DNA of 64,000 bases, taken from contig NZ_CP094656.1 of NCBI RefSeq assembly GCF_030643805.1, positions 2,232,001 to 2,296,000 on the forward strand, written 5' to 3'. Shown in pieces: positions 63,259 to 64,000 of this stretch; position 1 is the first letter of the stretch; the number at the start of each line of letters is the position of its first letter. Under the pieces are notes generated by a model. The model worked only from the letters and a program-made list of their open reading frames with translations. It searched no databases and was not told where the DNA came from. Both the position numbers and the translations under genes were made by a program. Source of the DNA: Alkalihalobacillus sp. AL-G (lineage in GTDB: Bacteria; Bacillota; Bacilli; Bacillales; Fictibacillaceae).

Positions 63259-63467
63259 CTAGGATGGAAATATTCGGCTGGCAGACAAGTCAATCATGTT
63301 AGGACTGATTGAATGTTTTCGTGTTGATTTATATCAAATCTAATTAGAAACAATCAATCCGGTCATGATTTTACAAGCCGTATTATGGTAATTACATTTC
63401 ATTTAAAAATCATTTCTTTTTAAGTTCATGCTCATATCATGTAAGGTGAAAATAAGGAGGGTATGCC

Positions 63468-64000
63468 ATGTTATTGAATAAATTTCAAACTATTCGTTTT
63501 ACTGACCAAAATGGAGACACCATATCAACCACAGATTTCCTTGGAAAGAAAACCTTGATTTTCATGTGGGCTTCCTGGTGACGTTGCCGCGAACAACTGC
63601 CTGGATGGCAGGACTTTTATGAAAAACATAAAGACAATGGATTTGAACTTCTTTCGGTAGCTGTCGACATCCAAGGGGCTGATGTTGTCAAACCTTATAC
63701 GAAAGGAACGACCTTTACGACCGTCGTCGATTCTGAAAACGTCTTGGGTAGCCTGTTTGGATTCAATATCGTTCCTAATGGGATATTTATTGATGAGAAC
63801 GGAATCATTCGTTTGATAAAACAAGGTTTTAGCATTACCGAAGAAGAACACTTGGAAGCCGTTGAAAACTTATTGAATGGAGAAGTTGAAAAAGTCGAAT
63901 TAGAAGACGCTTATTATGAACCTCAGGATTCAACCTCTGAATTGGAGGAACAGCTTGCACAAACCAAATTTAAACTTGGGATGGAATATTCAAAAAGCGG
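63468..64000 (+). CDS. Redoxin (thioredoxin-like) with in-frame TGA at the active site, cut by the window edge
   Basis: ATG 63468 follows AAGGAGG by seven bases. The frame reads MLLNKFQTIRFTDQ to LIFMWASW, then TGA at 63579-63581, then RCREQLPGWQDFYEKH and a complete thioredoxin-like domain (LLSVAVDIQGADVV; LFGFNIVPNGIFIDENG) with a helical tail that leaves the window. The TGA stands next to the redox Cys, where thioredoxins carry their first Cys. The remaining frame is intact to the end. It is either a selenoprotein or a nonsense-mutated pseudogene. Confidence 0.6.
63597..63611 (+). other. Hairpin downstream of the in-frame TGA, SECIS-like geometry
   Basis: CTGCC (63597-63601), loop TGGAT, GGCAG (63607-63611): a perfect five-base stem whose loop starts 21 bases after the TGA and has G at its second position. 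This meets the published loose rule for bacterial SECIS elements, but short hairpins also occur by chance. Confidence 0.45.

Follow-up and report, generated by a model that had tools for sequence, protein, structure and literature searches.

An in-frame UGA in a thioredoxin-fold gene of Alkalihalobacillus sp. AL-G is very probably read as selenocysteine under a conserved SECIS-like hairpin

Introduction

Selenoproteins that carry selenocysteine (Sec), one residue and then Cys on an AhpC-TSA- or TlpA-like fold have been described before. A Prx-like UGC-containing selenoprotein is listed in the GOS survey of 2008 (PMC2398784), and a UGC-containing Prx-like or TlpA-family selenoprotein also appears in reviews of 2022 and 2026 (PMC9312934 and PMC13188914). 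The portions of these three papers available to us name no Bacillales member, and our literature search found no title on a Bacillales form. A study of 2006 counts three selenoprotein families in Bacillales, given without names in the portion at hand (PMC1794560); the gene described here may possibly be one of the three, which would make that count an earlier sighting.

Here we analyze a stretch of 64,000 nucleotides (the window) from Alkalihalobacillus sp. AL-G, at the end of which a redoxin gene with an in-frame TGA had been marked in an initial annotation as a possible selenoprotein. Ordinary gene finding would cut this gene at the TGA, and the standard-code list of open reading frames holds only its last 166 codons. 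Comparison with relatives leaves us with very little doubt that TGA38 is read as Sec and that this is a real selenoprotein gene, not a broken one.

Results

A single TGA in an otherwise open frame

The features of the locus are as follows.

63454–63460, plus strand: ribosome-binding site AAGGAGG, with the ATG 7 nt downstream
63468–64000, plus strand: UxC thioredoxin-fold selenoprotein gene, codons 1–177; Pfam AhpC-TSA, Redoxin and Thioredoxin_8 above cut-off, and orthologues
63579–63581, plus strand: TGA codon 38, Sec reading; the codon is TGA in all 34 orthologues read and in 73 of 74 distinct genes
63585–63587, plus strand: TGC, Cys40, the Sec38 partner within UxC; unchanged across all 34 alignment rows
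63597–63611, plus strand: bacterial SECIS hairpin, stem CTGCC/GGCAG, loop TGGAT; from fold, conservation, covariation and the constraints in a figure legend of PMC13188914

From the ATG at 63468 the frame, the TGA aside, stays open past the end of the window to a TAA 242–244 bases beyond it (L009:1242-1244), for a total of 258 codons, and the active-site motif reads FMWASW-TGA-RCREQLPGWQ. The initial annotation had described an intact thioredoxin-like frame with one TGA directly after WASW, followed by Arg-Cys-Arg, and coding sense beyond it without another lesion. Both descriptions hold: the TGA is codon 38, Cys40 lies at 63585–63587, and the frame is open to codon 258. Over codons 40–150, three orthologue pairs differ at codon positions 1/2/3 by 27/14/63, 28/17/64 and 11/9/49. 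Because these differences fall mostly on the third position, the part downstream of the TGA is under selection.

The hairpin downstream of the TGA

The perfect stem with a G-containing loop, which had been proposed to lie at the distance of a SECIS element, is confirmed. Bases 63597–63601 (CTGCC) pair with 63607–63611 (GGCAG) around the loop TGGAT (63602–63606, GG at loop positions 2–3), the stem starting 15 nt and the loop 20 nt from the TGA. Folding of 63579–63625 (47 nt) returns the same stem at −9.6 kcal/mol for the whole stretch. This energy is ordinary (z −1.01; 31 of 200 shuffles reach it), and the hairpin stands above chance because of its conservation, not its energy. The legend of Fig. 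2 in PMC13188914 describes a bacterial SECIS as a 3–9 nt loop on an upper stem of 4–16 bp, with a G in the first two loop positions, a spacing of 16–37 nt and a minimum free energy of at most −7.5; as far as that legend goes, the present hairpin lies within every limit (a loop of 5 nt with G in second position, a stem of 5 bp, a spacing of 20 nt and −9.6 kcal/mol).

All five stem pairs are present in 34 of 34 orthologues from the order, with the stem start always 15 nt past the TGA. Among 74 distinct genes from a wider set, 73 keep all five pairs and one (L126) keeps four, while a loop G occupies position 1 or 2 in every one. Codon choice in the stem is skewed: its Leu codon is CTG in 27 of 34 genes, whereas CTG makes up 11% of Leu codons in the rest of these genes (p 6e-20), and its Gln codon is CAG in 29 of 34 versus 36% elsewhere (p 5e-9), both values treating the rows as independent. 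At the outer pair, the 34 genes show C-G 28 times, U-A four times, U-G twice and C-A never. In 70 distinct TGA rows there are nine double changes to U-A, and 99.7% of cells pair. The covariation score of these rows is reached by none of 500 shuffles and by no slid version; the control slid by +3 shows 6 pair types versus 4 and an equal number of two-sided pairs (2), but it pairs in fewer cells and scores lower. RNAalifold also recovers the unshifted stem. When the stem residues are left out of tree building, the outer pair changes state nine times along the resulting tree, and four independent pairs across supported branches test covariation; usually three or four of them (rarely two) go the same way and none the opposite way, a number too small for significance. 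Of the proposed check of the hairpin by covariation in close homologues, conservation and compensatory C-G to U-A changes are thus borne out in the wider set, while the own genus offers no variation, its five rows being invariant in the stem. The Rfam model SECIS_1 (RF00031) has no match in the own genome, nor in 14 control genomes, so that its silence is uninformative, and a search of all Rfam over 63400–63800 found no family matching the hairpin.

The TGA in relatives

Relatives were sought in a family set of 34 genomes, the own genome included, and in a set of 397 genomes of the order, taken from organism names to be Bacillales. Among the seven other genus members, five have the gene, at 61–67% identity and each with the TGA inside; it is absent from G028 and G030, the latter also being without selA. 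The order search (1e-20) matched 35 genomes, of which 31 are true carriers, all with an internal TGA. On reading, three matches (G089, G227 and G294) prove to be CxxC proteins of the ordinary type and a fourth (G003) is a remnant only; all four were set aside. The alignment of homologues that had been proposed as a check shows TGA, not Cys, at codon 38 in 34 of 34 full-length orthologues from the order (L011–L016, L043–L070).

Two further observations concern the gene's variants. Two genomes of a sister genus (L018:1501-1806 and L017:1498-1806 (minus)) retain no more than roughly its final 100 codons, 73–75% identical, behind unrelated sequence. Two order genomes (L136:310-1383 and L137:1184-2029 (minus)) carry not only the short form but also a long one, which reads WASW-TGA-GC and has this stem too.

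A scan with one genome per species gave 59 loci, mostly from Bacillaceae, then Alicyclobacillus, Paenibacillus, Chloroflexota and Planctomycetota, together with one record labelled Pseudomonas, which lies inside Bacillota on the tree, and one bin labelled Akkermansia. The site is TGA in 57 of them and TGT in L115, while L132 is frameshifted; L088 bears a further stop ahead of its TGA. After genes from the whole-genome sets were added, copies without a difference over 390 nt were collapsed into one and L112 (contig end) and L132 (frameshift) were excluded, 74 distinct genes remained, mostly from Bacillota, Chloroflexota and Planctomycetota: 73 with TGA and one with Cys. We also surveyed 400 genomes of Chloroflexota, the phylum of G809 (Dehalococcoidia), which bears L116. 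Matches were found in 28 genomes (30 loci); the motif is present in 27 loci, one of which (L154) is the L116 gene again, and all 27 have TGA. The three loci outside this count are a CxxC protein (L180), one whose contig ends before the site (L170) and L182. Since the search models carry C at the site, a Cys form should score no lower in such profile searches.

The own gene was the sole match in a phylum-wide search of 398 genomes at 1e-25, and the gene is therefore rare outside the order. A scan of viral contigs found no relative. Around the 59 loci, the largest shared cluster besides the gene itself occurs in 7 of 59, on mixed strands; as such, the neighborhood gives no hint of function.

Selenocysteine machinery

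The own genome (4.16 Mb, one contig) contains the full set of genes for which a search had been proposed. ARAGORN calls a tRNA-Sec with anticodon UCA (tRNA-SeC, tca), which the Rfam model scores at 57.7 bits. That model also rises above its cut-off in 5 of the 14 control genomes and on tRNA-Ser genes; it is unspecific, so the ARAGORN call carries this point. With NCBIfam, selB (354.6 bits), selA (561.2) and selD (381.6) all score above their cut-offs, and the three genes lie near the tRNA-Sec. With selA, selB, selC and selD all present, the genome has what a bacterial selenoprotein requires.

The selD gene (L010:9909-10961, minus) itself carries an in-frame TGA in its N-terminal part, where it reads MSKEEKIRLTTLSSKGG-TGA-GCKIG (GG-TGA-GCK), which is why the listed selD frame begins late. 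A UxxK motif of selenoprotein SelD is among those listed in the portion of PMC9312934 at hand. Together with the UxC gene, this makes at least two TGA-bearing selenoprotein genes in the own genome. Between selB and selD (L010:6354-9868) lie a weakly SenB-like glycosyltransferase (91 of 300 bits) and an ABC transporter of the PhnDCE type. The transporter's binding protein also matches a putative selenate family below cut-off (174 of 250 bits), and the transporter is a candidate selenium uptake system. A search of the own genome for formate dehydrogenase gave five matches, all below cut-off and none with an internal stop.

Across the order, selA is found in 31 of 31 carriers of the gene (E at most 2.1e-138) versus 181 of 397 genomes overall above cut-off (hypergeometric 5.8e-12, with the 397 genomes counted as independent and kinship ignored). 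In G204 (L140) the UxC gene follows selA by 36 nt on the same strand; by eye, the frame ahead of that selA resembles the end of selB. Among the 21 genomes of the outlying loci, 17 have selA above cut-off, those without being the genomes of L115, L132, L118 and L100. L115 is the only Cys form found, in a genome without detectable selA, and the frameshifted L132 likewise stands in a genome without selA above cut-off. The genome of L118 has a selA fragment and a full selB, its best tRNA-Sec match being a tRNA-Ser. In Alicyclobacillus sp. ALC3 (L100:5001-5753) the TGA gene and the hairpin stem are intact, and no selA, selB or tRNA-Sec was found above cut-off, the best match to the last being again a tRNA-Ser; the machinery has either been lost recently or lies outside the available sequence.

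Fold, active site and tail

Pfam ranks AhpC-TSA and Redoxin first for the protein. The AlphaFold2 model (pLDDT 86.8) shows a thioredoxin fold (approximately residues 1–138), four helices and a low-confidence tail, and its nearest matches among solved structures are 3kcm and ResA. The C-terminal part is helical and repeat-like, TPR models match the protein below their cut-offs, and the tail reads CGPEGC; a CGPxGC tail is found in one of 17 non-Bacillota rows (L111). By eye, the protein has no obvious signal peptide, and a cytoplasmic location is suggested. Across the 34 aligned rows, Sec38, Cys40 and Cys246 never vary and Cys241 hardly does.

Set against two ResA-like proteins encoded by the own genome, the protein has an active loop shorter by one residue, with UxC in place of CxxC and Sec at the position of the attacking first Cys. 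The in-frame UGA thus stands at a conserved redox position, as in bacterial selenoproteins. Between Sec and Cys stands an Arg in the present protein; the order's short forms have Arg or Lys there, and other rows Gly, Ala, Met, Thr, Arg, Ser or Val. The initial annotation had held the UxC spacing against the selenoprotein reading and allowed that this copy might have lost a codon from a CxxC motif. The doubt falls away, UxC being the conserved motif of the group; the spacing is an old one-residue difference from ResA-like CxxC proteins and not a lesion.

Discussion

The best explanation of these data, and one in which we have great confidence, is a 258-residue selenoprotein with a ResA/TlpA-like thioredoxin fold, a helical C-terminal part and a CGPEGC tail, into which Sec would be inserted at UGA38 by way of the hairpin. 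The selenoprotein reading first proposed from the window is supported by the sel genes, by TGA at the codon in 34 of 34 orthologues and by the conserved hairpin. Insertion by SelA, SelB and tRNA-Sec is well supported by these comparisons and would proceed as follows. SelA would make Sec-tRNA(UCA), which SelB, presumably binding the hairpin 15 nt downstream, would bring to UGA38 so that translation continues. Judging from the fold, Sec38, which opens the active-site helix, would most likely be the attacking residue, with Cys40 as its resolving partner via a selenenylsulfide, and the protein would reduce a disulfide or peroxide substrate. The C241/C246 tail may, at a guess, serve as a second relay in the Bacillota branch.

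Decay does occur among the kin of this gene: L132 is frameshifted in a genome lacking selA above cut-off, L088 has its further stop, and only a C-terminal remnant is left in G003 and G008. Such cases would fit a TGA that is a true stop, leaving a pseudogene or a 37-residue peptide. That the same TGA recurs in 73 of 74 distinct genes, that third-position bias continues downstream of it and that selA accompanies the gene in 31 of 31 order carriers speak against a stop, which we regard as most improbable. Equally hard to credit is a TGA read as Cys or Trp through another suppressor tRNA or a reassigned code. The CxxC kin do have Cys at this site, but the own genome encodes tRNA-Sec, selA, selB and selD, the sole Cys form (L115) stands in a genome where selA was not found, and the SECIS-like stem is conserved.

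With Sec at codon 38 retained, the question of function concerns only the other half of the explanation. The high Pfam ranking of AhpC-TSA and Redoxin would suit a Sec-dependent peroxidase of the AhpC/TSA type instead of a thiol-disulfide oxidoreductase. We consider this unlikely, though well within consideration, since the nearest structures are of the ResA/TlpA type, the first NCBIfam matches are ResA-like models and UxC occupies the place of CxxC in ResA-like proteins.

To our knowledge, nearly all known selenoprotein families have direct Cys counterparts. In the present group, Cys counterparts number one in 74 distinct genes and none in 27 motif-bearing Chloroflexota loci from the 400-genome survey. 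A tentative proposal, which we are inclined to doubt, is that the UxC redoxins of Bacillota, Chloroflexota and Planctomycetota form a Sec-only family in which Cys at the attacking position of the one-residue loop fails, so that loss of the Sec machinery would mean loss of the gene. The GOS table in the available part of PMC2398784 gives 46 and 855 for the UGC-containing kind in two columns, which we take as Sec and Cys sequences; if the 855 are Cys sequences, Cys kin occur beyond the circle sampled here, which weighs against the Sec-only reading. Because Cys forms are rare in the sets read, this group makes the indispensability of Sec directly testable. With a well-conserved UxC motif and hairpin in three phyla, it is a poorly studied group of selenoproteins, and its sequences could serve to build a curated model for the short form.

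Among described systems, the ResA/StoA/TlpA thiol-disulfide oxidoreductases share the fold and the place of the attacking residue. The present protein differs from them in having UxC, not CxxC, in lacking an N-terminal membrane anchor by eye, and in its additional helical C-terminus and CGPxGC tail; where the ResA model (NF002854) calls for CxxC and at least 170 bits, it has UxC and scores 55 bits. With the UGC-containing Prx-like/TlpA-family selenoprotein, as described in the portions of the literature at hand, it has in common the AhpC-TSA/TlpA kind of thioredoxin fold and the order Sec, one residue, Cys. It carries URC in place of UGC, with Arg where that kind has Gly; the likeness is drawn from published descriptions. 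The best NCBIfam match is NF041054 (WAxxUGC_long, ResA-like WAxxUGC motif-containing protein), which covers the thioredoxin-fold part and the active site. The protein stays below the cut-off of that model, with 114.5 of the required 300 bits (six-frame search: 86.5 bits), with its best stretch at profile positions 87–200 of 354 and without the N-terminal extension; the longer form L136 reaches 281 of the 300 bits. Given these scores, the gene is a further member of the known UGC-containing Prx/TlpA-like kind, with the short form perhaps an unnamed subfamily of it.
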